From positions 1 through 38,918 of the forward strand of contig CAJAFJ010000509.1 in the NCBI GenBank assembly GCA_903938955.1: a stretch of 38,918 nt of DNA. Direction: 5' to 3'. Position numbers and translations under genes: made by a program. Under the pieces are notes generated by a model. That model searched no databases. It saw only the letters and a program-made list of their open reading frames with translations, and was not told where the DNA came from. Of the stretch, positions 1,030 through 29,871 are shown piece by piece (the first letter of the stretch is position 1; every line of letters begins with the position of its first letter). Source of the DNA: an uncultured beta proteobacterium (lineage in GTDB: Bacteria; Pseudomonadota; Gammaproteobacteria; Burkholderiales; Burkholderiaceae).

Positions 1030-1148
1030 CTTGATACACATTGGTCATTGATTTTTATCGACCCGTGAATCAACAATGCGGTCTAAATTCCCAACCCCAG
1101 AGTGGTCGCATCAGCGTACCGATGAATCATTTTTGAGTGAGGTTTGAT

Positions 1149-2321
1149 ATGAACACAATCCGAAATTTCAAACTGGCCTTGGCTGGTGTGGCGCTGGCGG
1201 GCTTGGCGGCCTGCGGAGGTGGCGGGGGTGGCGAGGCCAGCACCGGCACCTTGCGACTGGCGCTGACCGATGCCCCGGCCTGCGGCTATGACGAGGTCAA
1301 TGTGACGATCCAGAAGGTTCGGGTGCACAAGAGCAGCACAGCCAGCGACACCGATGGCAGTTGGTCCGAAATCGTCCTCAACCCCGCCCGGCGCGTGGAT
1401 CTGCTGGACCTAACCAACGGCGTGCTCGACGAGTTGGGCCAGACGTCGCTGCCCACGGGCAAGTACACCCAGTTGCGGCTGGTGCTGGCAGCCAACAGCA
1501 GCGCCCTGCCACTGGCGAATTCCGTCGTCCTCTCCAGCGACCACAGCGAGGTCGCGCTCACGACCCCGAGCGGCCAGCAATCGGGCCTCAAAACCAATAT
1601 CAACATCGACATCGCCAGCAACCAACTGGCCGATTTTGTGCTCGACTTTGACGCCTGCAAATCGGTGGTTCGTGCGGGTAACTCGGGGCAATACCTGCTC
1701 AAGCCGGTCCTCAGCATAATCCCGCGCTACACCAGTGGCGTTGCCGGTTTCGTGAACGTCAGCCCGCTGCCATATGGCAGCGCCACCCTGTCGTTGCAGC
1801 AAGGCGGCGTCATCATCAAGGCGACTCCGCCAGACAGCAGCGGCCGGTTTCTGCTGCAGCCGGTCGCACCCGGCAACTACACGCTGGTGTTGACCGCGCC
1901 TGAACGCGACACCACCATCGTGACCCAGGTACCGGTGGTGGCCAACACCGTGACCTCTGTCAATACCAGCATCACCGCGTTCACCCCCGCCATCACAGGC
2001 TATGCCACCGTGAACGGCAGCGCCCCGATCGACACCCTGGTGCGTGCGCTGCAAGCGCTCACGGGGGGGCCGGTGGTGAAAATTGCCGGCCAGTTTGTCG
2101 ACGGCAGCACCGGGGCCTACTCGTTCCCACTGGTGGTCAATGCGCCGATGGTGGCGCCCTACGTGGCGGCACCGGGCCCGCTGGTGTTTGCGCCCGACAC
2201 AGCAGCGGCCGGGCTCTACACGCTGAACGCCAGCCTCAGCGGCCAAGTGGACCAGACCGTCGTGTTGAGCCCCTTGACCGCGGGGGCGACCGTGTCGGTG
2301 CCAGAGATTGTGTTTCCTTGA
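1149..2321 (+). CDS. DUF4382 lipoprotein
   Basis: A 390-residue secreted protein. The N-terminus has a short positive stretch, a hydrophobic segment and a lipobox LAAC with the lipidated Cys at residue 22, followed by a run of six glycines that probably acts as a flexible tether. Residues about 35-190 match the DUF4382 pattern (TLRLALTDAPACGYDEVNVTIQKVRVH, split here as two conserved blocks: LALTDAP and the VNVTIQKV strand). The remainder is beta-rich and resembles carboxypeptidase-regulatory-like folds. Start chosen at ATG 1149 because AGG at 1140-1142 sits six bases before it; the upstream in-frame GTG at 1137 overlaps that ribosome site. Function unknown; likely an outer-membrane or periplasmic surface lipoprotein. 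Monocistronic, convergent with kguD. Confidence 0.85.
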   Translation: MNTIRNFKLALAGVALAGLAACGGGGGGEASTGTLRLALTDAPACGYDEVNVTIQKVRVHKSSTASDTDGSWSEIVLNPARRVDLLDLTNGVLDELGQTSLPTGKYTQLRLVLAANSSALPLANSVVLSSDHSEVALTTPSGQQSGLKTNINIDIASNQLADFVLDFDACKSVVRAGNSGQYLLKPVLSIIPRYTSGVAGFVNVSPLPYGSATLSLQQGGVIIKATPPDSSGRFLLQPVAPGNYTLVLTAPERDTTIVTQVPVVANTVTSVNTSITAFTPAITGYATVNGSAPIDTLVRALQALTGGPVVKIAGQFVDGSTGAYSFPLVVNAPMVAPYVAAPGPLVFAPDTAAAGLYTLNASLSGQVDQTVVLSPLTAGATVSVPEIVFP

Positions 2322-2325: not shown

Positions 2326-3330
2326 TCAAGGCGTGAGAGAAAACACCGCCAGTGGGGGCTGGCCAGCCAAGGCCAGCAACAAATTGCTGGTGGCCATCTC
2401 CGCCATGGCGTGGCGCGTCTCGTGGGTGGCGGAGCCGATGTGCGGCAGGGCGGTGACCTTGGGGTGGGTGCGCAGCGGCGAGTCTTGCGGCAGCGGTTCG
2501 GTCGCAAACACATCCAGCCCGGCGGCGCGCAGGGTGCCGTGATCCAGAGCGTGCAACAGCGCGTCTTCCTGCACGATGGCGCCGCGGGCGCCGTTGATAA
2601 AAATGGCGCCCGGCTTCATCAAGGCAAACTCGCGCGCCCCCATCAGGCCCCGGGTTTCCGGGGCGAGTGGCAGCACCACGGCCACGATGTCGGCGCGTTG
2701 CAGCAGCTCGTCCAACGGGGTGTGACGGGCTTTGCCGACCAGTTCGGGGACTTCGTGCGCCAGATCAACCGGGCGGCGGTTGTGGTACAGCACCGGCATG
2801 CCAAAACCCAACGCGGCACGCCGCGCCAGTGCCTGGCCAATGCGGCCAAAACCCAGAATACCCAGCGTTTTGCCGTGCACGTCCGAGCCAAACAGGTCGT
2901 CACCGATGTTGCGGCTCCAGCGGCCTTCGCGCACATGGTTGGCCAGTTCCACCAAGCGCCGGCTGCTGGCCATGATGAGTGAAAAAATAGTATCGGCCGT
3001 GGTCTCGGTCAACACGCCGGGCGTGTGACAGAGCGTGATGCCGCGTGCCGCCAGCGCGTCCAGCGCGTAGTTGTCAACGCCCACCGACACGCTGGAAATC
3101 ACTTTCAGCTGCGGCGCCTGCGCCAGCAAGGCGGCGTCCACCGGGTAGCTGGAGCCGATCATGGCGTCGGCGCGGGCCAGTGCGGCGTGAAAGGCGGTGG
3201 CCTGCTCCGGCACACGCGGGTTGGCCAGCGTCACGTTGTGCTGCGCCTGCAGGCGGGCCAGCTGGTCCGGCGGCAGTTCGCGAAAGACCAGTACGTTTTG
3301 ACGCCGGGTGTCGACGGTGGGGGTCGCCAT
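2326..3330 (-). CDS. kguD: 2-hydroxyacid dehydrogenase, probable 2-keto-6-phosphogluconate reductase KguD
   Basis: A 334-residue D-isomer-specific 2-hydroxyacid dehydrogenase of normal length. The nucleotide-binding loop GFGRIG lies near residue 160, and the catalytic trio is visible: Arg in NGARG, Glu in ATEPLP and His in LPHIGSAT. By itself it could be a glyoxylate/hydroxypyruvate reductase (GhrB) or a gluconate 2-dehydrogenase. The context decides: it is the last gene of an operon with a PfkB kinase and a KguE-like protein under a PtxS-type repressor, matching the Pseudomonas kguEKTD set in which KguD reduces 2-keto-6-phosphogluconate to 6-phosphogluconate with NAD(P)H. It starts 2 bases after the kguK stop, so it is probably translationally coupled. 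Cytoplasmic. Confidence 0.85.
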   Translation of the reverse strand: MATPTVDTRRQNVLVFRELPPDQLARLQAQHNVTLANPRVPEQATAFHAALARADAMIGSSYPVDAALLAQAPQLKVISSVSVGVDNYALDALAARGITLCHTPGVLTETTADTIFSLIMASSRRLVELANHVREGRWSRNIGDDLFGSDVHGKTLGILGFGRIGQALARRAALGFGMPVLYHNRRPVDLAHEVPELVGKARHTPLDELLQRADIVAVVLPLAPETRGLMGAREFALMKPGAIFINGARGAIVQEDALLHALDHGTLRAAGLDVFATEPLPQDSPLRTHPKVTALPHIGSATHETRHAMAEMATSNLLLALAGQPPLAVFSLTP

Positions 3331-3332
3331 GG

Positions 3333-4277
3333 TCAGAACCCGGCTTGCGCCAGTTCGGCGCGGGACGGCAGCCCTTCGCTGTCGCCCAGCACCTGCACGG
3401 CGCGGGCGCCAATCCAGGTGCCGCGCTTGACGGCATCAGCCACGCTCAAGCCTTCAAGCAAGGCGCTGATCACACCGACGGCAAAACCATCCCCGGCGCC
3501 CACGGTGTCCACTACCTCGGCCACGGGCACGCCCGCGACATACGCGGCGCCGGTGGGCCCATCGTAAAACGCGCCTTCGCTGCCGAGTTTGACCACCACC
3601 AGTTCGGCGCCGCGCTGGCGGTAAAAGCGGGCAATGCCTTCGGGTGTGGATTCGCCAGTCAGAAAACGCCCTTCCTCCAGGCCGGGCAGCACCCAGTTCG
3701 CACGCGTGGCCAGGTCATTGATGGCGTTGCGCATGAGGTCGGGCGTGGCCCACAGCGTGGGGCGCAGGTTGGGGTCAAACGACACGCTGCGACCGGCGCT
3801 GCGCATCAGATCCATGGTGTGGCGGGCGGCCGGTAGCGTGGTGGCCGAGATCGCGGCAAACACGCCGGTGGCGTGCAGGTGCCGGGCGCTGAGCAGCCAG
3901 GCTTCGTCGATGTCGGCCAGACCCATGTGGCTGGCGGCGGAACCGGCGCGGTGGTATTCCACCGGCGGGTCGCTGCCGTCACTGACCTGGCCCTTGAACT
4001 GAAAGCCTGTTTTTTGTGTCGCGTCACACACGACGTGTGAGCAGTCAATGCCCTCGGCCCGCAGGGCGGCGAGCAAATAACGCCCCATGGAATCGGTGCC
4101 CAGGCGGCTGGCCCAGCCGACTTTCAGGCCGAGCCGTGCCAGGCCAATGGCCACATTGGTTTCGGCACCGGCCGTGCGTTTGTGAAAGGCGGCAGCCTGT
4201 TCCAGCGGGCCGGGCTGGTCCGCGACCAGCAACATCATGGCTTCGCCAAAGGTAATAACGTCCAGCGTGGGGCTCAT
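3333..4277 (-). CDS. kguK: PfkB-family sugar-acid kinase, probable 2-ketogluconate kinase KguK
   Basis: A 314-residue ribokinase-fold kinase. The N-terminus has the substrate region (FGEAMMLLV, then the GAETNVAIGLARLG block) and the C-terminal PfkB signature DTVGAGDGFAVG carries the catalytic Asp and the anion hole near residue 250. In isolation most pipelines would call it 2-dehydro-3-deoxygluconokinase (KdgK); the two substrates are chemically close. The operon and PtxS operator favour 2-ketogluconate phosphorylation at C6, giving the substrate of the next enzyme, KguD. It lies 11 bases downstream of the kguE-like gene, with AGGA upstream of its ATG. Cytoplasmic, ATP-dependent. Confidence 0.85.
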   Translation of the reverse strand: MSPTLDVITFGEAMMLLVADQPGPLEQAAAFHKRTAGAETNVAIGLARLGLKVGWASRLGTDSMGRYLLAALRAEGIDCSHVVCDATQKTGFQFKGQVSDGSDPPVEYHRAGSAASHMGLADIDEAWLLSARHLHATGVFAAISATTLPAARHTMDLMRSAGRSVSFDPNLRPTLWATPDLMRNAINDLATRANWVLPGLEEGRFLTGESTPEGIARFYRQRGAELVVVKLGSEGAFYDGPTGAAYVAGVPVAEVVDTVGAGDGFAVGVISALLEGLSVADAVKRGTWIGARAVQVLGDSEGLPSRAELAQAGF

Positions 4278-4288
4278 GGTGGGGTGTC

Positions 4289-5176
4289 CTATCGGTTGTT
4301 AGAAAGATGAAGGCGCTCAGTGCGGACCGCATCGGCCTGGCGGGTGGCGACCGCGCGCAAATGATCTAGCTCCTGCTGCGTAACGGTCAGCAGGTCATCG
4401 CCGGCCAGCGGGTATTCAATGGCCCACGGCACATCGGCCGGCAAGGCGCGCAGCACCGCACGCCAGGGGGCGCTGGAGTCGGCCAGCGGCACAGCGACCC
4501 AGCGCTGCGGCTGGCGTTGCACGCCTTTGCAATGCACATAACGCACTTGCGGCGCCAGTGCGGCGGCGGCCTGCAGCGGGCACTCGCCGGTCCAATGCCA
4601 ATTGCCCATGTCAAAGGTCATGCCCAGAAAAAGCCCGTGGGCGTTGGCGGCGGCAAAGAAATTTTGCAGGGCAGTCAGCGTACCCGCCGCCGGGGTCTGG
4701 TCGTTTTCAATCACCAGTTCAACCGGGGCTTTTTGCAGGCGTTGTTGCAGGTCGTCCAGCGAGTCATGGGAGGCCGAGCCAAAGCCGCCCATCGACATCT
4801 TCAGGCGCGACGCCTGCAGGGTGTGTGTCGCCGTCAGGGCGCGCTCCAGTGCCGGCACGTCGAGCCGGCCGTCAACCGTCCAGAGCGGCTCTGCGCTGGA
4901 ATACACCAGCGCTTTGCCAGCTGTGCGCACGAGGCTGGCGATGGCCGGGAGTTCCCGCGCCGGGTCCAGCAGTAATTCGCTGCGCACTTCCACACCGTCG
5001 GCACCGGCGGTCAGGCTGAGTTCGCTGAACCAGTGTTGGCCGTGGCGCCGCACTTCGGCCACTCCGAAGGCGGTCAGGGAAATCAGTATCGGCGGGGCGG
5101 TCTGCAGGCCCTCGCCCGATGTCGAGGCTGGCGTCTCTCCAGACACGGTGGCCGGACAAGCGTCTTCAGTGCGCAT
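4289..5176 (-). CDS. kguE: TIM-barrel sugar isomerase/epimerase-like protein KguE
   Basis: A 295-residue protein of the xylose-isomerase-like TIM-barrel (AP endonuclease 2) superfamily. Barrel-strand signatures are visible: GADGVEVR near residue 60, VELVIENDQ near 155 (a metal-ligand Glu is expected here), [10 protein letters not shown] near 190 and VRYVHCKGV near 215. The Pseudomonas kgu operon starts with a protein of this type, KguE, annotated as a putative epimerase whose exact reaction is not settled. The first about 28 residues (rich in Ser/Thr/Pro) look dispensable; an internal start is possible, though this ATG overlaps the end of the ABC ATPase gene by 11 bases, a common coupled arrangement. 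Probably assists 2-ketogluconate use; the precise role is inference. Confidence 0.75.
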
Positions 5177-5957
5177 GTTGCGAATTCAGAATTTGTCCCA
5201 GGAAGTTCCGGGTAGTTTCGTGTTTCGGGTTGCTGAAGAACTGCTGGGGCGGGGCCTCTTCGATGATCTTGCCGTTGGCCATGAAGATCACGCGGTCGGC
5301 CACGCTGCGGGCAAAGCCCATTTCGTGCGTGACACACAGCATGGTCATGCCTTCTTCGGCCAGGCTGACCATGGTGTCCAGCACTTCCTTGACCATCTCG
5401 GGGTCGAGTGCCGACGTGGGCTCGTCAAACAGCATGATCTTGGGCGTCATGCACAGGGCACGCGCAATCGCCACCCGCTGCTGCTGGCCGCCCGAGAGCT
5501 GGCTGGGGTATTTGTGTGCCTGCTCGGGAATGCGCACGCGCTTGAGGTATTTCATGGCGATGGTTTCCGCCTCTTCCTGGCTCAGACCGCGTGAACGCAT
5601 CGGTGCCAGCGTGCAGTTTTGCAAAATGGTCAGGTGCGGAAACAGGTTGAACTGCTGGAACACCATGCCCACCTCTTGCCGCACCGAGTCCACGTTTTTG
5701 CCACCGGCAGTCAGGTCGATGCCGTCCACCACAATGCGCCCGCTTTGCACCGTTTCCAGCCGGTTGATGCAGCGGATCAGCGTCGACTTGCCCGAGCCCG
5801 ACGGCCCGCAGACCACGATGCGCTCCCCGGCCCGCACGTTCAGGTTGATGTTGGTCAGCACCTGGAATTTGCCAAACCATTTGTCCACCGCTTCGATGCG
5901 GATGATGGGCTCGGCAGCCGGGGCCGCAGCGGGAGAGGATTGCATTGTGTCTGTCAT
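5166..5957 (-). CDS. polar amino-acid-type ABC transporter ATP-binding protein (GlnQ/HisP-like)
   Basis: A 263-residue ATPase of the PAAT family. Walker [11 protein letters not shown]-loop [11 protein letters not shown], signature LSGGQQQR, Walker [13 protein letters not shown] and the switch His in CVTHEMGFA are all intact. The first about 20 residues (Ala/Pro rich) precede the typical start of such proteins. It energises import through the two permeases encoded upstream in the same transcript. The 3' end overlaps kguE by 11 bases, tying the importer to the sugar-acid enzymes. The family classically imports glutamine, histidine or glutamate; here the operon partners suggest a sugar acid (2-ketogluconate), which is inference. 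Faces the cytoplasm on the inner membrane. Confidence 0.93.
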
Positions 5958-5990
5958 GAAAGCACCGTGGTCGCTGACTCGGGGTCGGGT

Positions 5991-6797
5991 TTATTGCATT
6001 TTTGGCAGGTCGGTTTCCAGCCATTTGCGGTAGAGCTTGTTGAGCTCGCCGTTGGCGCTGTTTTTGGCGACAAAATCGTCCACGGTTTTGAGCAGCTCAG
6101 CCTGGCCCGGGCGCATGGCCACCGCCATGACCTGCTGGCGCAGCAGGAACTTGTTCTCGTAGGTATTGGCCGGGGCGCGCTTGTCGATTTGCGCGGCCAC
6201 CGTGGTCGAGCAGCCAATGGCGTCCACCTGGCCCGACATCAGCGCCTGCATGGCGGAGGCGTCGTCGTCAAAGCGGCGAATCTCGGTGCCTTCAGGGGCC
6301 ACGGCGGTCAGGGCCACATCCTGCGTGCTGGCGCGGGCAACCCCCACGCGTTTGCCTTTGAGGTCAGTCGCCGACTTGATGTTAGCTTTTTTGTCGCCGT
6401 ACAGCACGATGCTGGCGGCAGCATACGGTTTGGAGAACTGCACCTGCTTGGCCCGCTCGGGCGTCACGGCCAGCGAGGCCACCAGCAAGTCAACCTTGTT
6501 GGTCAGCAGAAACGGGATGCGGTTGGGGCCGGTGACCGGCACCAGGTTGACCTTGACGCCGAGGTCTTTGGCCATCAGGCGGGCCACATCAGCGTCGTAG
6601 CCGTCGGGCTGGTTGCTGCTGTTCATGGTGCCGTAGGGCGGAAAATCGACCAGCATGCCGACCGTCAGCTCGCCTTTTTTCTTGATGTCGGCGACGCTTT
6701 GCGCGCTGGCCGCAGGAGCCCACGCGGACAGGGTGGCGGCCAGGCCCAAGGCCAGGGCGGTGCCCGTAAAGAGGCGGCGTTGCAGATGCTTGATCAT
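5991..6797 (-). CDS. periplasmic solute-binding protein (family 3) of the kgu-linked ABC importer
   Basis: A 268-residue SBP_bac_3 protein. The N-terminal signal peptide has Lys/Arg residues, a hydrophobic core and a likely Ala-X-Ala cleavage near residue 32 (ASA|QS). Mature-domain landmarks are GELTVGMLVDFPPYG, the YDADVARLMAKDLGV block, LVASLAVTPERAKQVQFSKPY and the LKGKRVGVARAST hinge region. In amino-acid binders a conserved Arg and Asp clamp the alpha-amino and carboxylate; whether these are adapted to a keto-acid sugar cannot be judged by eye. Located between the permeases and the ATPase, 55 bases after the second permease. It should define the importer's specificity, so it is the best target for testing the 2-ketogluconate prediction. 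Confidence 0.9.
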   Translation of the reverse strand: MIKHLQRRLFTGTALALGLAATLSAWAPAASAQSVADIKKKGELTVGMLVDFPPYGTMNSSNQPDGYDADVARLMAKDLGVKVNLVPVTGPNRIPFLLTNKVDLLVASLAVTPERAKQVQFSKPYAAASIVLYGDKKANIKSATDLKGKRVGVARASTQDVALTAVAPEGTEIRRFDDDASAMQALMSGQVDAIGCSTTVAAQIDKRAPANTYENKFLLRQQVMAVAMRPGQAELLKTVDDFVAKNSANGELNKLYRKWLETDLPKMQ

Positions 6798-6852
6798 GGT
6801 GAAGTCTCCGTGAGTTGTGGTGAGAAATGACAGGGTGAAAAACAGGGCGCGC

Positions 6853-7506
6853 TCAGCGCGTCAACGCCGCCGCTTGCCGGCGTTCCATGCGGGCGGCCAG
6901 CAAGGACAGCGGCCAGCACAGCACAAAATAAATGGCCGCCACCACGCTGAACACAATCAGCGGCTGGAACGTGGCGTTGTTGATGATCTGGCCGGAGCGC
7001 GTGACTTCGACAAACCCAATGATGGCCGCCAGGGACGTGCCCTTGATGATCTGCACCATGTAGCCGACCGTGGGCGCAAGCGCAATTCGGCCGGCCTGCG
7101 GCAAGATCACATAACGCATGCGCGCCACATAGGGCAGGCTCAGCGCCTGCGCCGCTTCCCATTGACCACTGGGAATGGCCTGGATACAACCACGCCAGAT
7201 TTCGCCCAGAAAAGCGCTGCTGTTGAGAATGAGGGCCGTGCCCGCCGCCACCCAGGGGTTGATTTCCAGCCCCAGCACTGGCGCGCCAAAGAACACCAGA
7301 AACAGTTGCAGCAGCAGCGGCGTGCCCTGAAAAACCTGGATGAAGGCACCCGACAAAAACTGCGCCACGCGGTTGTGCGAGGTGCGGCTCAGCGCAATGA
7401 TCAGGCCACCGATGGCACCGCCAGCAAAGGCAATCATCGAGAGCGCCACGGTCCACTTGGCCGCCTCAAGAATGAACAAAAATTCGGAGAAACCAAAAGT
7501 ACGCAT
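6853..7506 (-). CDS. PAAT-type ABC transporter permease (second permease)
   Basis: A 217-residue inner-membrane permease of the HisM/GlnP type with about five hydrophobic segments. The cytoplasmic EAA loop that docks the ATPase is visible as EAAQALSLPYVARMRYVILP near residues 137-156. The region QVFQGTPLLLQLFLVFFG (residues about 57-74) matches the conserved periplasm-proximal block of the family. Its ATG shares one base with the TGA of the first permease (TGATG), indicating translational coupling. The two permeases presumably form a heterodimer. Confidence 0.92.
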   Translation of the reverse strand: MRTFGFSEFLFILEAAKWTVALSMIAFAGGAIGGLIIALSRTSHNRVAQFLSGAFIQVFQGTPLLLQLFLVFFGAPVLGLEINPWVAAGTALILNSSAFLGEIWRGCIQAIPSGQWEAAQALSLPYVARMRYVILPQAGRIALAPTVGYMVQIIKGTSLAAIIGFVEVTRSGQIINNATFQPLIVFSVVAAIYFVLCWPLSLLAARMERRQAAALTR

Positions 7507-8177
7507 CAGCGGCCTGCCGGGTAGTTGAGGGCCAGGCGGTAGATCACCCGGAACAAGGCGGAAAACGACAGCGCCAGCAGCAGGTAAATACCGGCCACGA
7601 CGATGTAAATCTCAAAGCTGCGGAAGGTCTGCGACTGCAGATTGGCCGCGACCGAGGTCAAGTCGTCTGCCGAAATGGCCGACACCACGGCCGAACTCAG
7701 CATCAGCAAAATGAACTGGCTGGTGAGGGCCGGGTAGACGGTGCGCAGCGCCGGTTTCAGAATCACAAAGCGGAAGATTTCGTGGCGCTTCAGGTTCAGC
7801 GCCAGGCCGGCCTCGATCTGCCCTTTGGGAATCGACTCGATCCCGGCGCGGATGATTTCGGTGGCGTAGGCGCCCAGGTTCACCACCATGGCGACCAGCG
7901 CCGCCGCGTAGGCCGACCAGCGCAGGCCCAGCGCCGGCAGGGCAAAAAAGAAGAAGAACAACTGCACCAGAAACGGCTTGTTGCGGATCAGCTCAATATA
8001 AGCATTGATGACCCAGCGCAGCGGACGCGGCCCGGCGGTCTTGCCCCAGGCGCAGACGATGGCCACCAGCAGGCCGAGCAGCATGGCCAGCAGCGACAGC
8101 TCGATCGTGTTGAGCGTGCCCTTGACCAGCAGCGGCCAGGCAGCAAAGACATCACCGAATTGAAATGAATAGTTCAT
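7506..8177 (-). CDS. PAAT-type ABC transporter permease (first gene of the kgu operon)
   Basis: A 223-residue permease with the family block IELIRNKPFLVQLFFFFF and an EAA loop (EAGLALNLKRHEIFRFVILK) near residues 137-156. Start chosen at ATG 8177, giving MNYSFQFGDVF; the open frame continues upstream only to a TTG at 8222, which adds 15 residues unlike family members and would lie in the leader. It is the promoter-proximal gene: a near-perfect -10 and the PtxS-type palindrome lie 76-100 bases upstream. Repression at this site would therefore control all seven genes down to kguD. Confidence 0.92.
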   Translation of the reverse strand: MNYSFQFGDVFAAWPLLVKGTLNTIELSLLAMLLGLLVAIVCAWGKTAGPRPLRWVINAYIELIRNKPFLVQLFFFFFALPALGLRWSAYAAALVAMVVNLGAYATEIIRAGIESIPKGQIEAGLALNLKRHEIFRFVILKPALRTVYPALTSQFILLMLSSAVVSAISADDLTSVAANLQSQTFRSFEIYIVVAGIYLLLALSFSALFRVIYRLALNYPAGR

Positions 8178-8253
8178 GAGCGGGCGCAGTCGCCAGGTTA
8201 AGCACAAAAATGATCGGATCAACCTGATTCAGAATCCCTGTGAGCAAGCAACT

Positions 8254-8269
8254 CTGAAACCGGTTTCAG
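8254..8269. promoter_or_regulatory. PtxS-type operator (perfect 16-bp palindrome)
   Basis: CTGAAACCGGTTTCAG is a perfect inverted repeat. Its inner 14 bases (8255-8268) are identical to the operator described for PtxS, the LacI-family 2-ketogluconate repressor of Pseudomonas. It starts 3 bases downstream of the -10 box of the ABC/kgu promoter (minus strand), so bound repressor would cover the transcription start. The regulator gene lies directly upstream. Confidence 0.85.
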
Positions 8270-8272
8270 TAA

Positions 8273-8302
8273 ATTATAAAAATACAGTTCATCAATAAGC
8301 AA
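8273..8302 (-). promoter_or_regulatory. sigma70-type promoter of the ABC-kgu operon
   Basis: On the minus strand a perfect TATAAT (8273-8278) is preceded, with an 18-base spacer, by TTGCTT (8297-8302), a four-of-six match to TTGACA. The predicted start falls near 8266, inside the PtxS-type palindrome. The promoter lies between the ptxS stop (8325) and the first permease, which makes the operon separately transcribed from ptxS. Confidence 0.6.
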
Positions 8303-8324
8303 CTATGGAAAACCCTAACCCAGA

Positions 8325-9398
8325 CTAACGATCGGCGTGTACCGACGAACCGCGCGGCACCAGTTGGCCGGACAGCAAAATCTGGCGTGGCGGCAGGTCC
8401 AGCCCGTTCAAACGCTCAAGCAGGCAGCCCGCCGCAATGCGCCCCAACTCGTTGGTCGGCTGGGCGATGCTGGTCAGACCGGGGCCGATATACGGCGACC
8501 ACTCGGTGTCATCAAAGCCCACCAAACCGACATCGCGACCCAACTGCCAGCCCAGCCGCGCCAGCGCGGCGACCACCCGCAGCGTCACCACCGCGTTGCT
8601 CGACAGCACACCGGGCAAGCGCGCACCGGCCCGTTGGCGCAGATGGCGCAAAGCCTCGTCCAGCGCTTGCGGCTCGTCCGCCGCGTGTTCAAACGTGACA
8701 CCCTGCAGACCAGCGACCTGGGGTTGCGACTCGCTGACATAGGCGCGAAACGCTGCCTCGCGCTCCTCGCGCGAGCTGACGTTTTTGACCGGCTCCGAGA
8801 CAAACAACAGCTCGCGGTAGCCCGCTTCCACCAAGTGGCTGGCCCCCAGGCGCACCGCGCCCGCATTGTCCAGTGACACAAAATCGGCCTGCATCCCGGG
8901 GTGGCGCCGATCCACCAGCACCACCGGCTTGCCGTGGAGCGCGGCCTCGGCGGCGGCCTTGCCGTCACGGCCCAGCGTGTTCAAAATAAAGCCGTCCACC
9001 TGATACGCCGTGAGTGCGTCAATGGCTTCACTTTCGCGCTGGCTGTCATTGCCCAGGTTGAACAGCATGAGCAGGTAGCCCGCATCCTGGCAGGCTTTTT
9101 CCGCGCCGCGCAGCACGGCCACCGAGAACGGGTTGGTCACATCCGCCACCACCAAACCGATCAGGCGCGAGCGTCCGCGTTTGAGGGCCTGCGCCATCGG
9201 ACTCGGGCTGTAGGCCAGGGCCGCAATCGCCACCTCGACGCGGGTGGCAATGTCTTTGGTCAACAGTTTTTCACGGTGATTCAGAAACCGCGACACCGTG
9301 GCTTTGGAGACCCCGGCCCTGCGCGCCACATCTGCAATCGTGGCGCGCGCCGCCTTCTGCGGGGCCGGGCTGGTGGGCGATTTTTTTTGATTTGGCAT
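8325..9398 (-). CDS. ptxS: LacI-family transcriptional repressor, PtxS-like
   Basis: A 357-residue LacI/GalR regulator of usual length. The DNA-binding helix-turn-helix with hinge is at residues about 19-75 (ATIADVARRAGVSKATVSRFL), followed by a periplasmic-binding-protein-like effector domain (GLVVADVTNPF, then GFILNTLGRDG and VGLVGFDDTEWS). Operators of PtxS type are present in front of both this gene and the adjacent importer/kgu operon. In Pseudomonas PtxS, 2-ketogluconate releases the repressor from DNA; the same inducer is inferred here. The ATG at 9398 has only a weak ribosome site, but the imperfect operator at 9429 lies just upstream, consistent with autoregulation. Confidence 0.88.
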   Translation of the reverse strand: MPNQKKSPTSPAPQKAARATIADVARRAGVSKATVSRFLNHREKLLTKDIATRVEVAIAALAYSPSPMAQALKRGRSRLIGLVVADVTNPFSVAVLRGAEKACQDAGYLLMLFNLGNDSQRESEAIDALTAYQVDGFILNTLGRDGKAAAEAALHGKPVVLVDRRHPGMQADFVSLDNAGAVRLGASHLVEAGYRELLFVSEPVKNVSSREEREAAFRAYVSESQPQVAGLQGVTFEHAADEPQALDEALRHLRQRAGARLPGVLSSNAVVTLRVVAALARLGWQLGRDVGLVGFDDTEWSPYIGPGLTSIAQPTNELGRIAAGCLLERLNGLDLPPRQILLSGQLVPRGSSVHADR

Positions 9399-9428
9399 CG
9401 GGAACAGGCAATGGGTGAAGGGTATTTA

Positions 9429-9442
9429 TGAAACCAGTTTCA
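9429..9442. promoter_or_regulatory. PtxS-type operator upstream of ptxS (imperfect)
   Basis: TGAAACCAGTTTCA keeps both half sites TGAAAC/GTTTCA of the 8255-8268 palindrome, with one changed base in the centre (CA for CG). It lies 31 bases upstream of the ptxS ATG on the minus strand, next to an AT-rich stretch (TAGTATTTAT) that could serve as -10. The same operator-after--10 layout as at 8254 suggests weaker, autoregulatory binding. Confidence 0.7.
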
Positions 9443-9542
9443 ATAAATACTAGCATCCCTGATGCCTCTCGGGCTAGCCTTATTCCATGAGGAATGCGCC
9501 TAGTCCCCAGCCAGCAAGCCGTCCCGACTGCAGAACCAGGGG

Positions 9543-9758
9543 CTAATGAGATCTGGCGTGTCGTGCAACGACGGGGCCACTCTGGAAAGCCCCTTTGATA
9601 AATTTTTCATAGGGCAGTGACCAGCGGCTGTCATTGGCGCTTTGGGTTTTCTGCAAATCAATTTCAGTTTTTATTTGCACCACCAATGCATCGTCAACGC
9701 CATAGCGGGCGAGCAGTTTTGAGTGGAGTCGATTCAAGTTGCCAGGATGTTTTGACAT
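9543..9758 (-). CDS. small hypothetical protein
   Basis: A 71-residue protein, charged and probably soluble, with no domain I recognise. Support for it being real: an AAGGG ribosome site eight bases before the ATG (9758), a plausible amphipathic composition (RLHSKLLARYGVDDALVVQ near residues 10-28) and a position in an otherwise empty interval, with nothing better on either strand. The last about 12 residues are rich in His and Arg. It is monocistronic as far as can be seen. An 11-base string at 9760-9770, overlapping the ribosome site, recurs upstream of the gene starting at 20054. Confidence 0.55.
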   Translation of the reverse strand: MSKHPGNLNRLHSKLLARYGVDDALVVQIKTEIDLQKTQSANDSRWSLPYEKFIKGAFQSGPVVARHARSH

Positions 9759-10010
9759 GGGGTTTACCCTTGTGAAAAATCAAAGTATCCCCCGGATTTC
9801 ATCAGAAAATTCCAAAAAATTTAATGCCTCTTTGACGTGAAGCAAGTATTTGATTTGAACGCGGATGCGCATCGCGCACGTTCACCAGGTGGCACCGTGG
9901 ATGCTAATTGGGATGAAATTTAGAGTCATGACAGCCCCCGCGTCGAGTGCAAAACACGGTTGATAATCGACCCTCATTTTTTCGACAATTGACAACCCGA
10001 AAGCCAACTG

Positions 10011-10508
10011 ATGAGCGACAAGATCTTCAACGTACTGTTCCTGTGCACCTGCAATACGGCGCGCAGCCTGTTGGCGGAAGCGCAATTGAACGCACTGGGC
10101 AAAGGGCGCTTCAGGGCTTTTTCGGCGGGTAGTTTCCCGACCGGCACGGTGAACCCCAATGCCATCGATTTTCTTGCGCATATTGGCCTTCCCACGGAAG
10201 GCTTGCGCAGTAAATCATGGGATGAATTTGCGACGCCTGACGCGCCCGTCATGGACTTCATTTTGACCATCTGTGACGACGCGGCCGAAGACCAGTCCCC
10301 CATTTGGCCCGGTCATCCCATCGCTGCGCACTGGGGCGTGGCAGACCCGGCCAAAGTCAAAGGCAGCGCTGAAGAAAAGCATCACGCCTTCATGGATGCG
10401 GGCTCCAACTTGCGTAAGCGCATTGAGCTTTTTATCGCCTTACCCACCAGCGCACTGGACCGCATGAGCCTCAAGTATCAGTTGGATGAAATTGGCAAAT
10501 CTGTGTGA
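10011..10508 (+). CDS. arsenate reductase-like low-molecular-weight phosphatase family protein
   Basis: A 165-residue protein of the LMW protein tyrosine phosphatase / ArsC fold. The phosphate-binding loop CX5R is CTCNTAR at residues 12-18 followed by Ser19. The family blocks RSKSWDEFA (66-73), APVMDFILTICD (78-89) and AHWGVADPA (106-114) are clear. Two things are unusual: the P-loop has an extra Cys14 where relatives have Gly (CTGNSARS), and the second resolving cysteine usually found about eight residues after Cys88 is replaced by Ser96. The Cys relay of thioredoxin-linked ArsC enzymes is thus altered. It stands alone, not in an ars operon, so arsenate may not be the physiological substrate. 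Confidence 0.8.
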   Translation: MSDKIFNVLFLCTCNTARSLLAEAQLNALGKGRFRAFSAGSFPTGTVNPNAIDFLAHIGLPTEGLRSKSWDEFATPDAPVMDFILTICDDAAEDQSPIWPGHPIAAHWGVADPAKVKGSAEEKHHAFMDAGSNLRKRIELFIALPTSALDRMSLKYQLDEIGKSV

Positions 10509-10578
10509 GAGCGCCAATGATGGCTACGGGGGATGGTCATCAAACTTTCATATCGTTCGGTAATGCTGTGAGGGCGGT

Positions 10579-10905
10579 ATGTCACCGCTGCCCACCCTTT
10601 GCGAGCCCTCCATGACTAATGAAAATACCCCCGTGATACCTGCTGACACGACTGTCGAGTTGACCGAGAAATATTTCGAAGAGGATTTTGAGACCCCAGG
10701 CGAGTACCACCGGATGGCCGCATTGCACTTTTCTGCCGCCGCCAAACATCACCTTGCGGCGGCCACTGCCGATGACGACGGTGACAGCGACGGCACCGCC
10801 CGCCACGCATTTCAGGCCTTTCGCCACCAACTCAATGCGGTGCAATACGCCGAAATTGCCGTCATGGATAACGAAAGCCTGGAAGAAGACGCCGACAGTA
10901 TTTAA
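10579..10905 (+). CDS. small acidic hypothetical protein
   Basis: A 108-residue acidic protein (many Asp/Glu in ELTEKYFEEDFETPGEYHR and at the C-terminus) with a central Ala/His-rich helix (MAALHFSAAAKHHLAAA) that suggests a small helical bundle. No family was recognised with certainty. Two starts are possible: ATG 10579 with AGG five bases upstream, or ATG 10612, which begins MTNENTPV and has a poorer ribosome site. Codon use and composition look like the neighbours. It is followed after 54 bases by the convergent binding-protein gene. Confidence 0.6.
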   Translation: MSPLPTLCEPSMTNENTPVIPADTTVELTEKYFEEDFETPGEYHRMAALHFSAAAKHHLAAATADDDGDSDGTARHAFQAFRHQLNAVQYAEIAVMDNESLEEDADSI

Positions 10906-10959
10906 AACGATTGCCCGGCTGGCCACCTATCATCTTGCGCCTGTTGCACGCAGCACCCA

Positions 10960-11838
10960 TCAGGGTTGGCTGGCGTAGATGTCCCGGATTTCTCGGTACT
11001 TGTCATCGCTGACGGGGTTAAAGCCCTCCGCATTCATGCTCCGCAACATGCCTTGCAGGGATGCGCTGTTTTGGAAGAAAGCCTGCTTGATTTTGTCGAT
11101 CACGGGCTGACACAGCCGACCCCGGTACACAAAGGGGTCATAGGGAATGGGCGATGATTTCCATTGCACCACCATTTCATCCGGACGGACGCTGCCGGTA
11201 CGCAGCGCCTCATCCAACCGGCTACTCGATACAAACGCGGCATCCACAAAGCCTTTTTGCACGGCCTGGATCGCGCGGTCATGCGAGCCGGCGAAGGTGA
11301 TCCGGCCGAAGTAGCGCTCAAACGGCATGCCCGTCAGTGTGCTGATGGCCTGCCGCGGGATCAAGGCCCCCGATGTGCTGGCCGGATCAACCAGGCTGAC
11401 GCTACTGTCGCGCAGGCTGGCCAGGCCGTTGAAATGCTTATCGCGACGCACGATCAGCAGCGAGCGGTAGCTGTCGCTTGAATCGGTGTGGAGCCCCACG
11501 CGCTGGATCAATGACGCAAAAGCCGTGATTCCGGCATCACGCGCCTTGGCTTGGGCATAGGAGGCCGGCCCCAGTTCGGCCAGCTCAATATTGGCGGCCA
11601 GCAACCCTTCCACCACGGCACCGTAGGAAGGGGCCAGAACCAGCTCCACGGGTCGTTTCAAACTGGCTTCGAGTGCGTTGACCAGCGGGCGAAATTCGGC
11701 GGCCTGTGATGCCGCATTTTTGAGCGGAATCAGTGAAAGGCGGATGACTTTGGGGTTGTCGCAGGCTTGTGCCTGACTAGAACCCGCGAAGAGTGCGAAG
11801 GACAGAGCTAGCAAAAAGGTTCGGGCGTTAAGGTTCAT
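10960..11838 (-). CDS. PhnD/SsuA-type phosphate/phosphonate-like periplasmic binding protein
   Basis: A 292-residue binding protein. The signal peptide ends near residue 24 (SSQAQA|CDN); note the Cys at 26, so a lipoprotein is not excluded although the lipobox is poor. Family features include the RLSLIPLKNAA start, FRPLVNALEASLKRPVELV, the conserved EGLLAANIELAELGPASYAQA block, and VSLVDPASTSGALIPRQA, matching phosphonate/phosphite-type binders. No ABC permease or ATPase is nearby. Instead its ATG overlaps by four bases (ATGA) the end of a GGDEF-EAL gene, so it may serve as the ligand sensor for that membrane protein. Ligand unknown. Confidence 0.85.
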   Translation of the reverse strand: MNLNARTFLLALSFALFAGSSQAQACDNPKVIRLSLIPLKNAASQAAEFRPLVNALEASLKRPVELVLAPSYGAVVEGLLAANIELAELGPASYAQAKARDAGITAFASLIQRVGLHTDSSDSYRSLLIVRRDKHFNGLASLRDSSVSLVDPASTSGALIPRQAISTLTGMPFERYFGRITFAGSHDRAIQAVQKGFVDAAFVSSSRLDEALRTGSVRPDEMVVQWKSSPIPYDPFVYRGRLCQPVIDKIKQAFFQNSASLQGMLRSMNAEGFNPVSDDKYREIRDIYASQP

Positions 11839-14195
11839 TTGGGCGGTGTCAGGATGGATTGCTGGATGAGGTGAGCTGCGGCGGTCGCATCGACCGGGCG
11901 GCTCAGAAAATAACCTTGCACCTGGTCACAGTTGATCGATTTGAGATGCAACAGTTGGTCCAGCAATTCCACCCCTTCGGCCACTACCTGCATCTTCAGC
12001 TTGTGGGCCATGGTCACGATGGAATCCACAATGGTGGCATCCTGCGGGCTGTTGCGGATGTCGTTGATGAATGAGCGATCAATCTTGATGACGTGAATCG
12101 GCAGCGTGCGGATGTAGGTCAGGCCCGAATAACCGTTGCCAAAGTCATCCAGGGCGATGTGAACGCCAATGCGCGCCAGGTCAGACAAGACCTTGGTGGC
12201 GATCTCGATGGAGTCCACCAGACTGCTTTCCGTAATTTCGACTTCCAGCAAGTTGGCCGCCACGCCAAAAGAGGCCAGATAGTCCGCGATGCGCTGGGGG
12301 AAATTCAGGTCGTGCAATTGACGCGCCGTGACGTTGATGGCGACCGGAACCGGATTCAAACCCTGGGCTTGCCACTGGGCCAATTGCAAGCAGGCGCTAC
12401 GCGCCACCCAGTCGCCCAGCGCGACATCCATGCCCGTCAGCTCCGCCATCGGGACAAATTCACCCGGGAGAATCAGGCCGTGTTCCGGGTGCTGCCAGCG
12501 CACCAGCGCCTCCAGCCCCACAATTTTGAAGTCGCTCAGGCGCACCTTGGGCTGAAAATGCAACACCAGTTCGTCTTCCGCAATCGCGGTGGGCAGCCGT
12601 TGCTCCAGGCTGAACTGGCGGTTACTCACCGGGTTGAGCGCCGGGTCGTAAAAGGTGTAGCGCCCCCGACCCGCTCGCTTGGACTGGTACATGGCCGCAT
12701 CGGCATGCTGGCACAGCGTTTCCACGTTGTGTCCATCTTGCGGAAACACGGCAATGCCGATGCTGGGGCTGACCTGAATATCGTGCCCATCCAGATTGGT
12801 GCAGGGGCGGCTGATCAACTCGATGATGTGGCTGGCCACCCGACTCAGGTCAGCCACACTGTCGAGTTCGTTCAGCAGCAGCGTGAACTCATCACCGCCC
12901 ATGCGGGCAATCACGTCCGACTCCCGCACGGCGGCTTGCAGCCGGGTGGCCACGGTTTGCAGCAGCAAGTCGCCCACATGGTGGCCGAGGGTGTCGTTGA
13001 TATTCTTGAAACGGTCCAGATCCAGATACATCAGACCGTAGTACTTGCGGCTTCTTTTGGCACGCGACAGGTGGCTGTGGCCCAACTCCAGGAACAAGCG
13101 GCGATTGGGTAGCCCGGTCAAGGCATCGTGCGACGCCATCGTGATGGCGTGGTGACGTTGATCCTCCAGCTCCAGGATGAGTGTCCGATTTTCAAGGTCC
13201 GCATTTTTGAGCGCGTCATACAACTTTTCGCGCCCCCGCAACGACCGAGCAATAAAGAAGGTGGTCATCAAAATGAAGCCCGAGAACAGCCAGAGCAGCC
13301 ACTGGCCGCGTGTTCGGTTGGCACCGTATCCCGTCTGAAGCTCCGCCATATCGCGACTCACCACCACCAGAAATGGATACGCCGCCAGATGTTTGAAGCT
13401 GGCCAGATAGCGATGCCCATCCCCAAAATAATCAGCGACCACCGAGCCTTGCGCGCCATCGTTCGGCCTGAAGAGCCCGGTGCGCCAGGTGCCTTGGGTG
13501 TATTCCAATCCGCCAAGGCGGGCCCGCGCGACCTCTTCGCCACTGCGCTGAAGAATCTGGATGGCCCCGGTGCGCCCAATATCGACTTCACGGTAAAGAC
13601 CCAGGATGTAGCCGAGGTCCAGCACGACCAGAAAAACACCGTGGGTGTCACTGTTCTTACCCTGGACGGGGAGCAGCAATTGCACCTGCCAGGCCCTGGC
13701 CAGCGGGTCCGCCCAAGGAACCAGCTGGGGTCCGCTTGCTTCCTCTGGGTTGGCTAACAACGCACGAATCGCCTGCGTCAACAAGCCGCTGTCGGTGTCG
13801 GGTGAAGAGGCATAGACCTGCCGTGCGTTTTTGTCGTAAAGCGCAATGCGCAGAAACACCTGGTTCGCGGAGCGCATGGCCGATAGCCGCTTGGCCGCAT
13901 CGCCCGGGTTGCCGTCAAACCATTCGGACGACGCCAGGGACAGAAATCTGGCCCGCTCCAGCACCTGGTTGAAATTCTCGGAAATGATGATGGCCAGGCT
14001 TTCCTGGTGTGCCCGCGAATTTTTATCCAGTAACGCCCGTTCGTTGTCTAGCCAATGCCAGGTCACCGACCAAGTGGCCGCCAACAGGACCAAACACAGG
14101 GCAATCACCCCGACCAGTGGGCGTCTCCAGTCGCTGACTTTTTGAGTTTTTAGCCTGCGCCAGAAACGTTGATGGGGTGGAGTGGTCACGGGCAA
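11835..14195 (-). CDS. membrane GGDEF-EAL c-di-GMP protein with periplasmic sensor domain
   Basis: A 786-residue protein. Residues about 26-48 form TM1, about 50-290 a Cache-like periplasmic domain, about 298-318 TM2, followed by a short coiled linker, a GGDEF domain (about 355-515) and an EAL domain (about 530-780). The cyclase motif is intact (RMGGDEFTLL) with an inhibitory-site RxxD (RESD) five residues before it. The phosphodiesterase also looks intact: EALVRW, the Asn of AINVTARQL, EITESS, LDDFGNGYSGL, KIDRSFI, VVAEGVE and VQGYFLSRP. It can therefore be bifunctional; which activity dominates is not predictable. First gene of a two-gene operon with the PhnD-like binding protein. Confidence 0.92.
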   Translation of the reverse strand: MPVTTPPHQRFWRRLKTQKVSDWRRPLVGVIALCLVLLAATWSVTWHWLDNERALLDKNSRAHQESLAIIISENFNQVLERARFLSLASSEWFDGNPGDAAKRLSAMRSANQVFLRIALYDKNARQVYASSPDTDSGLLTQAIRALLANPEEASGPQLVPWADPLARAWQVQLLLPVQGKNSDTHGVFLVVLDLGYILGLYREVDIGRTGAIQILQRSGEEVARARLGGLEYTQGTWRTGLFRPNDGAQGSVVADYFGDGHRYLASFKHLAAYPFLVVVSRDMAELQTGYGANRTRGQWLLWLFSGFILMTTFFIARSLRGREKLYDALKNADLENRTLILELEDQRHHAITMASHDALTGLPNRRLFLELGHSHLSRAKRSRKYYGLMYLDLDRFKNINDTLGHHVGDLLLQTVATRLQAAVRESDVIARMGGDEFTLLLNELDSVADLSRVASHIIELISRPCTNLDGHDIQVSPSIGIAVFPQDGHNVETLCQHADAAMYQSKRAGRGRYTFYDPALNPVSNRQFSLEQRLPTAIAEDELVLHFQPKVRLSDFKIVGLEALVRWQHPEHGLILPGEFVPMAELTGMDVALGDWVARSACLQLAQWQAQGLNPVPVAINVTARQLHDLNFPQRIADYLASFGVAANLLEVEITESSLVDSIEIATKVLSDLARIGVHIALDDFGNGYSGLTYIRTLPIHVIKIDRSFINDIRNSPQDATIVDSIVTMAHKLKMQVVAEGVELLDQLLHLKSINCDQVQGYFLSRPVDATAAAHLIQQSILTPPK

Positions 14196-14879: not shown

Positions 14880-16226
14880 ATGGAACTCACGCTGAAACTG
14901 CTTTACGGCGGGGCGAGCAGCCTGGCCTCCTACCTGGCTGCGCATGTTCTGCTGTGCCTGTTGCCGGCTTTTTTCATTGCCGGCGCCATGGCCGCGCTGA
15001 TCCCCAAAGCCAGCATCACGCGCTGGCTCGGGCGCAACACCCCGGCGCATATTTCTTACCCCGCTGCAGCGGCGGCAGGCTCCCTGATTGCGGTGTGCTC
15101 CTGCACCATCGTGCCGCTGTTTGCGGGCATTTACCGCAAGGGTGCGGGCATGGGCCCGGCCATCACCTTTTTGTTCTTTGCCCCGGCGGGCAACATCATG
15201 GCGTTGGCCTACACCGGCAGCATTCTGGGGCCTCAATTTGCAGCAGCGCGGTTGTTGCTGTGCCTGGTATTTGGCATCGGCATTGGCGTGCTGATGGCGC
15301 GCATCTTCTGGCGCGACGACGCCAGCCACGACGCGCAAACCGACACGCTGTTTGGGGAGCAGGCCGCGATTGCCCCAGCAGCGCTGGGCGTGCTGCTGTC
15401 GCTGGTGGCCTTGCTGATTGCGGGCACCTTGAAACTCTGGCCGCTGACGGCGACGGTGGCAGCTTTTGAGGTGCCACTGAGCTGGGCGCAGGCGTGGCAA
15501 ACCACCCTCTTCCAGTGGGTGCCGTTTGATGCCGCCAAAGGCGAAGAAGGGGTGAGCTTGCAAGGCTCGGTGCTGATTGGCTTGCTGCTGCTGATTGCGG
15601 CTACCGCCTGGCAAGGGCTGGAGAACATTGTCGAAGGCGCCAACCGCTGGACCTGGCTGGCGCTGGGCCTGGCCGCTACCACCTTGCTGGTCGCCTCCTT
15701 GCGTCTGACACCCCATGCCAACGGCCTGCAAGTCGGCGTGACCGGGCGCGTGCTGGCCGTGGGCTTGAGCCAATGGGCGGTGTGGCACTTTGCCCGCCAA
15801 CTGGCCGCCGATGACTGGCGTGCCTGGCTGTGGGAAGCGTGGCGGTTTGTAAAACAGATTTTTGTGCTGCTGGTGGTCGGCGTGTTCATCGTCGGCATGG
15901 TGCGCCAGGTGATTCGCCCGGAATGGATCGAGAGCCTGGCCGGCAGCAACACAGTGCAGGCCAACGCGGTGGCAGTGGGCTTTGGCGTGTTCATGTACTT
16001 TCCGACGCTGGTCGAGGTGCCGGTGGCGCGCATGTTTTTGGACCTGGGCATGCACCCCGGCCCGCTGCTGGCCTACCTGATGGCCGACCCCGAACTCAGC
16101 CTGCAAAGCATGCTGATGGTGGCGGCGGTGATTGGGCGTAAAAAAACGGCGGCTTATGTCGGCTTGGTGGCCGTTTTCAGCATCTGCGCGGGCCTGCTGT
16201 ATGGCACTTGGGTGGATGCCATCTGA
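14880..16226 (+). CDS. PF03773-family (ArsP-like) permease
   Basis: A 448-residue inner-membrane protein with about ten hydrophobic segments. The family hallmark CSCTIVPLFAGIYRKGAG near residues 73-90 and FLFFAPAGNIMAL near 99-111 are present; a second related half carries YFPTLVEVPVARMFLDLGM near 380. Members include ArsP, an exporter of trivalent organoarsenicals, but many are uncharacterised, so the substrate is open. The gene follows a Grx-type arsC and is followed after 39 bases by a small thioredoxin-like protein, the standard partner of this permease family. The pair probably forms one operon. Confidence 0.88.
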   Translation: MELTLKLLYGGASSLASYLAAHVLLCLLPAFFIAGAMAALIPKASITRWLGRNTPAHISYPAAAAAGSLIAVCSCTIVPLFAGIYRKGAGMGPAITFLFFAPAGNIMALAYTGSILGPQFAAARLLLCLVFGIGIGVLMARIFWRDDASHDAQTDTLFGEQAAIAPAALGVLLSLVALLIAGTLKLWPLTATVAAFEVPLSWAQAWQTTLFQWVPFDAAKGEEGVSLQGSVLIGLLLLIAATAWQGLENIVEGANRWTWLALGLAATTLLVASLRLTPHANGLQVGVTGRVLAVGLSQWAVWHFARQLAADDWRAWLWEAWRFVKQIFVLLVVGVFIVGMVRQVIRPEWIESLAGSNTVQANAVAVGFGVFMYFPTLVEVPVARMFLDLGMHPGPLLAYLMADPELSLQSMLMVAAVIGRKKTAAYVGLVAVFSICAGLLYGTWVDAI

Positions 16227-26156: not shown

Positions 26157-26170
26157 GAGGGTGTTCCGTT

Positions 26171-27975: not shown

Positions 27976-27978
27976 GGT

Positions 27979-29277: not shown

Positions 29278-29286
29278 GGCAAGTCC

Positions 29287-29805
29287 TTATTCGATACGGG
29301 CAGGTTCGTTGTCGGTCATGGGGTCGCGCAAGGGTTCGCCGCGCAGCAACAGAATCAGGTCACCCAGAAAGGCGAGTACAAAAAGCGAGGTGCCGATGGC
29401 CATGCCCAGTTGCGGAATCCACAACGGGGTGGCGTCCAGACCGGTAGAGATGTCATGGAACTCACGCGACTGCAGCATCAACCGGATCGAAAACCACGCC
29501 AGAGCGCCAGACAGGGCAATCGCCACTAAATGGCACGCAATGTCCAACAGACCCTTGCCCCGCTCAGGCAGCTGGTTGAACAACAGCGTGACGCGGATGT
29601 GCTCACCCCGACGCAAGGTGGGTGCCAGCGCCATAAAGGCCGAAATAGCCATGCAGTAGCCTGCGTAGGCATCGGCACCTGGCAGGTCGAAGACAGGGTG
29701 GAGTCGGCCCAGGATGCTGGCCAGTACCGACACCAGGGTGCCAACCATGAAGACCCCGGCCAGGTACCCCGTCGCGTTGAAAAATCGATCAAGCAGTTGT
29801 CGCAT
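29287..29805 (-). CDS. TRAP transporter small permease (DctQ type)
   Basis: A 172-residue membrane protein with four hydrophobic segments, the normal size for DctQ. The GADAYAGYCMAISAFMALAPTLRRGEHIRV region (shortened) includes the conserved polar RRGEHIRV motif before TM3. It forms the complex with DctM. 66 bases separate it from dctP. Confidence 0.9.
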   Translation of the reverse strand: MRQLLDRFFNATGYLAGVFMVGTLVSVLASILGRLHPVFDLPGADAYAGYCMAISAFMALAPTLRRGEHIRVTLLFNQLPERGKGLLDIACHLVAIALSGALAWFSIRLMLQSREFHDISTGLDATPLWIPQLGMAIGTSLFVLAFLGDLILLLRGEPLRDPMTDNEPARIE

Positions 29806-29871
29806 GATGCGCCCTTTTAAGAAGTTGATGGAGGGCCGCCCCGTGTGAGGCGGTACGGTCTTGGCAACGGT

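Follow-up and report, generated by a model that had tools for sequence, protein, structure and literature searches.

An amino-acid-type ABC importer in the place of KguT in a predicted 2-ketogluconate operon of the Burkholderiales

We analysed a stretch of 38,918 nucleotides from an uncultured beta proteobacterium of the Burkholderiaceae (contig CAJAFJ010000509.1 of assembly GCA_903938955.1; hereafter the window) which carries on its minus strand an operon for the predicted utilization of 2-ketogluconate (kgu), with an ATP-binding cassette (ABC) importer of the polar amino acid transport (PAAT) type in the place of the major facilitator superfamily (MFS) transporter KguT. Judging from gene context, operator sites and the ligand pocket of the binding protein, we consider it quite probable that this importer carries 2-ketogluconate into the cell. 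A first-pass annotation, made from the letters of the DNA, had proposed a PAAT importer for a keto-sugar acid; this idea gains from the gene context and from the loss of the side chains that would hold an alpha-ammonium group, and the substrate itself is a matter that we infer.

Results

The operon consists of eight genes lying head to tail on the minus strand, in the order LacI-family regulator, permease 1, permease 2, binding protein, ATPase, and kguE-, kguK- and kguD-like genes, with its widest intergenic gap (~150 bp) between the LacI gene and permease 1 and its nearest named homologues in Rhodoferax and Polaromonas. The PtxS-like regulator (8325..9398; Pfam LacI and Peripla_BP_3) falls just beyond the range 2326..8177 considered in the first-pass annotation. 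Permease 1 (7506..8177), for which the ATG at 8177 is the likelier start, a TTG at 8222 upstream also being open, and permease 2 (6853..7506) are both of the PAAT/HEQRo type, scoring 97.9 bits (on 7506-8222) and 94.9 bits respectively against a TIGR01726 cut-off of 42.2. They are followed by a periplasmic binding protein of the SBP_bac_3 family with an altered ligand pocket (5991..6797) and a single GlnQ-like ATPase (5166..5957; PF00005, with 329.6 bits from the GlnQ model, under its cut-off of 379), and the importer is thus complete, its last gene overlapping kguE by 11 bp, just as first annotated. Among the families listed (the top 25 out of 189 in the case of the ATPase), no transport protein passed the equivalog cut-off for any named amino-acid or ectoine system. 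The remaining genes encode a KguE-like TIM-barrel protein (4289..5176), a KguK-like PfkB sugar-acid kinase (3333..4277; PF00294) and a KguD-like 2-hydroxyacid dehydrogenase (2326..3330; PF02826/PF00389). The open reading frame list and a domain scan of the operon genes gave no MFS gene within the operon, which bears out the earlier claim. The operon is therefore like kguEKTD with ptxS, as known from Pseudomonas and the Enterobacteriaceae, in its KguE-, KguK- and KguD-like genes and adjoining LacI repressor gene, and unlike it in having no kguT and in the four ABC genes that precede kguE. Promoter and terminator scans yielded about as much as they did on shuffled sequence, and Rfam gave no match anywhere in the window.

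A KguE profile built from 22 KguE-like sequences and run against the whole PDB had a sole match, PA2260 of Pseudomonas aeruginosa (1yx1; E 4.2e-53), which we take to be kguE; the window protein itself had no NCBIfam match and 26.0 bits from Pfam AP_endonuc_2, under the cut-off of 31.1. The kinase matched PDB 4du5 with 602 bits and its best NCBIfam score was 171.8 against a cut-off of 400, so that its kinship is clear and its substrate a prediction. For the dehydrogenase the top PDB match was 9m0t, 'Probable 2-ketogluconate reductase' (E 3.2e-73), and the best NCBIfam model GhrB (363.5 against a cut-off of 492); none of the three proteins reached an NCBIfam equivalog cut-off. Compared with three operons that have an MFS carrier (L089, in genome G123, L119 and L120), KguE was 37-39% identical (39% to the enterobacterial pair), KguK 54-58% (54-57% to that pair, the Enterobacter sugar kinase being at 57%) and KguD 52-54% (52% to Enterobacter GhrB). 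The gene order in Enterobacter hormaechei is LacI, epimerase, sugar kinase, MFS, ghrB, and the same kgu neighbourhood including the MFS gene is found in Enterobacter, Klebsiella and G123; our comparison of PtxS was made through the Enterobacter and Klebsiella operons. The PA2260 and reductase matches, these neighbourhoods and an exact PtxS operator (below) together support the prediction that the operon belongs to the kgu type, as first annotated, with the three enzyme genes and the adjacent PtxS-like repressor all located. With KguE of L089 as the query, two of 369 genomes of the class were matched. The experimentally tested kguK of Cupriavidus necator H16, sought by its published primer ends, had no match in the collected loci; the C. 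necator C39 kinase that turned up in its stead sits in an altronate-type gene group (judged by eye and by likeness to the annotated locus L086).

The regulator is 40% identical to the LacI protein that occupies the place of ptxS in the kgu operon of Enterobacter (L120), where the site differs too and reads TGGAACCGGTTCCA; the corresponding Klebsiella gene is annotated in two pieces. A LacI protein more than 45% identical to that of the window is present in 67 of the 80 related loci described below, some of them cut short. An operator-like palindrome, TGAAACCGGTTTCA (8255..8268), is located 77 bp ahead of the permease 1 ATG and matches at every base the 14-bp PtxS operator described for the promoters of ptxS, kgu and gad in Pseudomonas (PMC5902321; also PMC11678583). 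A second palindrome, TGAAACTGGTTTCA (9429..9442), differs from it by one base and lies 30 bp ahead of the regulator ATG. Searching with the pattern TGAAACYGGTTTCA returned only these two sites in the window and zero matches in 100 shuffles, and in the 1.29 Mb of the 80 loci such sites numbered 84, of which 82 fell no more than 260 bp ahead of permease 1 or LacI. The two outliers are an exact copy of the site in L054, placed 4 bp into the permease match and hence outside the 260-bp rule, and a site in L013, 762 bp before permease 1. In the 66 loci with enough sequence upstream of permease 1, a site lies within this distance ahead of permease 1 in 54, ahead of LacI in 28, and ahead of one or other in 63; the three that remain are L054, L041 and L044.

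The transport cassette is conserved well beyond the window. GTDB genome contigs were scanned with a KguE alignment, and of 349 relatives the best 80 were kept, 69 of which have at least 4 kb upstream of kguE. A search for ptxS-linked PAAT genes in other genomes, suggested together with the first-pass annotation, was answered positively in this set: permease, permease, binding protein and ATPase occur in the same order and on the same strand in 66/69 loci, from lineages including Comamonadaceae, Alcaligenaceae and Oxalobacteraceae. This count includes L066, in which the permease 1 match is split into two pieces ~1 kb apart (4911-6642), as if interrupted by an insertion. In the three exceptions either only the binding protein and ATPase were recognised (L033) or none of the four genes was (L076 and L077). 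Since the 80 loci are those most like the KguE of the window, the figures describe conservation within a lineage and do not show how often kgu operons in general have this arrangement. A wider sample of 250 genomes of the order contained five with KguE (threshold E 1e-15). Of these, G001 and G175 carry this cassette, G182 has another PAAT type, G123 has an MFS gene, and G103 has kguE and kguK and no transporter recognised in the stretch read. In L097 (genome G571, 6119-10085) kguK comes immediately after the four transport genes, and the stretch read contains no match to KguE or KguD.

As a probe for KguT we used the MFS protein between kguK and kguD of G123 (L089), which matches MFS_1 and, below its cut-off, a D-galactonate-transporter model, and which shares 74-77% identity with the KguT proteins of Enterobacter and Klebsiella. 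In 46 of 49 cassette genomes it found nothing at E 1e-60 (scoring was confined to 35 first-look candidates in seven genomes of the 49), and in the other three it found MFS proteins of 32-34% identity. G123 itself has, beside its true KguT, 15 further proteins that are 28-32% identical to the probe, so that this level of identity denotes MFS kinship only. Conversely, in six kgu-type genomes that do not have this cassette the closest binding protein was 36-43% identical, and one of them, G298, had no binding protein at E 1e-40. A close KguT and this PAAT cassette were not found together in the genomes examined, and the lack of a close KguT in the 49 cassette genomes supports the earlier proposal that the importer stands in for KguT.

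Other carriers occupy the same place in one relative each, namely KguT (G123), a TRAP protein (L077) and a second PAAT type (L088). In L077 (Azohydromonas lata, 7563-13780) LacI, kguE, kguK and kguD are followed by a TRAP binding protein (DctP), with near-palindromes of the PtxS kind before LacI and kguE. L088 (in G182, 4643-11846) has the order LacI, binding protein, permease, permease, ATPase, kguE, kguK, kguD; its binding protein and ATPase are 44% and 52% identical to those of the window, which makes it another PAAT type, and its operator site is the same as that of L089 and Enterobacter.

The model of the binding protein (mean predicted local distance difference test score, pLDDT, 85.1) has amino-acid-type binding proteins as its closest PDB folds, and fold searches thus do not decide the ligand. 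In the structures of GlnBP, LAO and the iGluR proteins an Arg binds the alpha-carboxylate of the ligand, and a Thr hydroxyl and an acidic side chain bind the alpha-ammonium group. Five PDB proteins aligned with ours (two entries of one ancestral reconstruction, an ancestral glutamine/arginine binder, Thermotoga maritima ArgBP and a Campylobacter cysteine binder) have Thr opposite Ala110, Asp opposite Ser197 and Arg opposite Arg115. In an alignment of 74 rows (the window and 73 loci) the carboxylate Arg115 is kept throughout, and Ala110 and Ser197 replace the Thr/Ser and Asp/Glu side chains of the alpha-ammonium site in every row; Asn92, Arg93, Arg155, Thr158, Asp160 and Asp178 are likewise invariant (74/74). 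An acid that has no alpha-amino group, such as 2-ketogluconate, would fit a pocket of this kind. The cassette is therefore like the PAAT/HEQRo importers GlnHPQ and EhuABCD in its SBP_bac_3 protein, its two permeases above the TIGR01726 cut-off and its GlnQ-like ATPase, but unlike them at the alpha-ammonium Thr and Asp. The PAAT binding proteins OccJ, NocT and SocA, for opines and Amadori compounds, take ligands that contain an amino acid; no amino-acid enzyme was recognised in the window operon.

Among more distant cassettes of the same kind, several have neighbours suggestive of sugar-acid metabolism. Five of them (L082, L083, L101, L102 and L103), among which are Sinorhizobium meliloti pSymA and Azospirillum lipoferum, are like the window cassette in having the four transport genes in the same order, a binding protein 52-61% identical with mostly the same pocket residues, and a LacI gene and, after the ATPase, a 2-hydroxyacid dehydrogenase gene beside them. 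They differ in having Gly at position 110, no KguE, a LacI of low identity (28-32%) and a palindrome of different sequence: TTTAGATCGATCTAAA or its core before permease 1 in L082, L101, L102 and L103, the variant TTGGATCGATCCAA in L083 (at 6349), and TTTGGATCGATCCAAA as a second site in L103. They have no KguK either, save that L103 additionally carries a distant (27%), 2-dehydro-3-deoxygluconokinase-like kinase that scored below the cut-off of that model. A 38% relative of the binding protein in Diaphorobacter (L086, 1-6972) lies beside genes annotated as altronate dehydratase family, mannitol dehydrogenase family and sugar kinase, and a 39% relative in C. necator (L081, 1-6942) beside an altronate-type gene group whose genes were identified by eye; both proteins likewise have no Asp at the alpha-ammonium site. 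In Polaromonas OV174 (L092, 3326-9698) a paralogous PAAT cassette, with a binding protein 55% identical, follows an SDR gene and a hydrolase gene whose product scored 430 bits (cut-off 500) with a 2,4-didehydro-3-deoxy-L-rhamnonate hydrolase model; a MocR-like regulator gene is convergent at the end of this cassette. A lone Variovorax binding protein gene (L084) has no clear sugar-acid neighbour by annotation, with a gluconolactonase-family gene ~3 kb away, and none is clear for L095, L099, L100, L104 and L107, each examined for one neighbour.

In a tree of 59 binding proteins (25 chosen from the 73 locus rows, 33 others and the window) L088 lies outside the kgu set on a long branch, which suggests a separate recruitment; on a plain reading, not proven, PAAT importers entered kgu operons twice. 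The kgu-linked rows lie near each other, yet the long-branched paralogue L092 (82/63) and the lone Variovorax L084 fall among them, and a single origin of the kgu-linked proteins is thereby neither shown nor excluded.

Elsewhere in the window, a DUF4382 protein gene (1137-2321, plus strand), with a signal or lipoprotein start judged by eye, converges on the operon and stops 4 bp short of the kguD end. A gene group at 25383-30915 (minus strand) comprises LamB/YcsF, two carboxyltransferase-domain genes and TRAP DctM and DctP, and presumably resembles an operon for 5-oxoprolinase (PxpABC) that includes a TRAP importer of its own. On the plus strand are a low-molecular-weight-phosphatase-like protein (10011-10508), under the ArsC cut-offs, and an ArsP_1 permease (14880-16226).

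Discussion

The scheme we propose is as follows. The PtxS-like LacI repressor would occupy the two 14-bp palindromes, one ahead of permease 1 and the other ahead of the repressor gene itself, until 2-ketogluconate, by analogy with PtxS, released it. The binding protein would capture periplasmic 2-ketogluconate, with Arg115 holding its carboxylate and Ala110 and Ser197, neutral at the alpha-ammonium place, suiting the C2 oxygen of a sugar acid, and the two permeases and the ATPase would move it into the cell at the expense of ATP. Inside, KguK would phosphorylate 2-ketogluconate at C6 and KguD would reduce the resulting 2-keto-6-phosphogluconate to 6-phosphogluconate, from which the Entner-Doudoroff pathway would take over, with KguE presumably needed by analogy. 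Edd, the next Entner-Doudoroff enzyme, was over its cut-off in 35 of the 36 cassette genomes, out of the 49, that were searched for it and for PF13618, a gluconate 2-dehydrogenase subunit.

Several observations weigh against this scheme. PF13618 was found in only 8 of the same 36 genomes, so that most of them get 2-ketogluconate from outside, make it by an enzyme beyond that model or use another substrate. Most cassette genomes may thus scavenge 2-ketogluconate made by others, a situation in which a binding-protein importer would help; 2-ketogluconate is made by Pseudomonas in its periplasm (PMC5902321). The loci L041 and L044 have the whole ABC-kguEKD cassette with neither a LacI gene in the locus nor an operator. 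These two loci have in common another conserved stretch upstream of permease 1, and another regulator may control the cassette there. As to the pocket, Asp at 197 is found in none of 33 further rows (three of them the cassette rows L091, L097 and L098), whatever their neighbours, and Thr at 110 in none of them either, three having Ser there; the loss of Asp197 therefore marks a wide subfamily and not 2-ketogluconate in particular, and across that subfamily gene context only would indicate the substrates. The kgu-linked binding proteins fell on one side of a branch in just 6% of 200 bootstrap trees, and of two plasmid-borne Variovorax binding proteins that are ~80% identical, the one examined has no permeases or kgu genes nearby. 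PF13618 was also present in three of four other kgu genomes, only one of these with KguT; the notion that the ABC form goes with organisms that do not make 2-ketogluconate was dropped, the comparison (8/36 against 3/4) resting on too few genomes.

The alternative that fares best, unlikely as we judge it, is that a neighbouring sugar acid (2-keto-3-deoxygluconate, gluconate, 2-ketogulonate, 5-ketogluconate or glucosaminate) is what the cassette imports, with the kgu enzymes acting on that compound or on its product. KguK of C. necator is described as also phosphorylating 2-keto-3-deoxygluconate, 2-ketogulonate and 2-keto-3-deoxygulonate (PMC6651773), and related cassettes adjoin 2-dehydro-3-deoxygluconokinase-like (L103), altronate dehydratase family (L086) and rhamnonate-pathway hydrolase-like (L092) genes, so that the subfamily may vary among sugar acids; the combination of KguE, KguK and KguD with an exact PtxS operator nevertheless points to 2-ketogluconate in the window. 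That the cassette is an amino-acid importer merely co-transcribed with kgu enzymes would agree with its fold, with the closest solved structures and with the source annotations, which where given read polar amino acid transport or similar, but we think this very doubtful given a linkage kept in 66/69 loci, a close KguT otherwise missing and alpha-ammonium side chains that are gone. Least probable of all is that 2-ketogluconate enters chiefly through an MFS protein encoded elsewhere in the genome, with the ABC system in an auxiliary role, since, for all that three of 49 genomes have proteins of 32-34% identity to the probe, that the search covered relatives rather than the whole genome of the window and that candidates were limited in seven genomes, a probe so close to Enterobacter and Klebsiella KguT found no near counterpart in the 49, and proteins of 28-32% accompany even the true KguT of G123 as mere MFS kin.

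Import of 2-ketogluconate by the PAAT cassette remains our preferred reading. Beyond it, we give even odds to the broader proposal that a large branch of 'polar amino acid' ABC systems, having lost the alpha-ammonium site and having as neighbours genes for the breakdown of 2-ketogluconate, of altronate-type and rhamnonate-type acids and of 2-hydroxyacids or keto-sugar acids, are sugar-acid importers, that the branch entered kgu operons at least twice, and that MFS, two PAAT types and TRAP carriers interchange there. No ABC or PAAT importer for 2-ketogluconate appeared in open-access titles and abstract openings among the matches listed, subscription journals and databases of fitness data and regulons lying outside that scope. 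A PAAT system for glucosamine is known in Pseudomonas, and predicted LacI regulons are collected in RegPrecise.

2-Ketogluconate is also an industrial product (PMC11678583). PAAT importers are by default named amino-acid transporters. If the cassette carries 2-ketogluconate, such names would be wrong for Burkholderiales, as they might also be for rhizobia, and two binding-protein residues might help to pick out the misnamed ones. It would then provide an ATP-driven, binding-protein-dependent route for a sugar acid, and a clean case in which unrelated carriers have been swapped while the rest of the operon and its regulon stayed constant. Its wider interest would lie in a possible sugar-acid branch of the 'amino-acid' importers.

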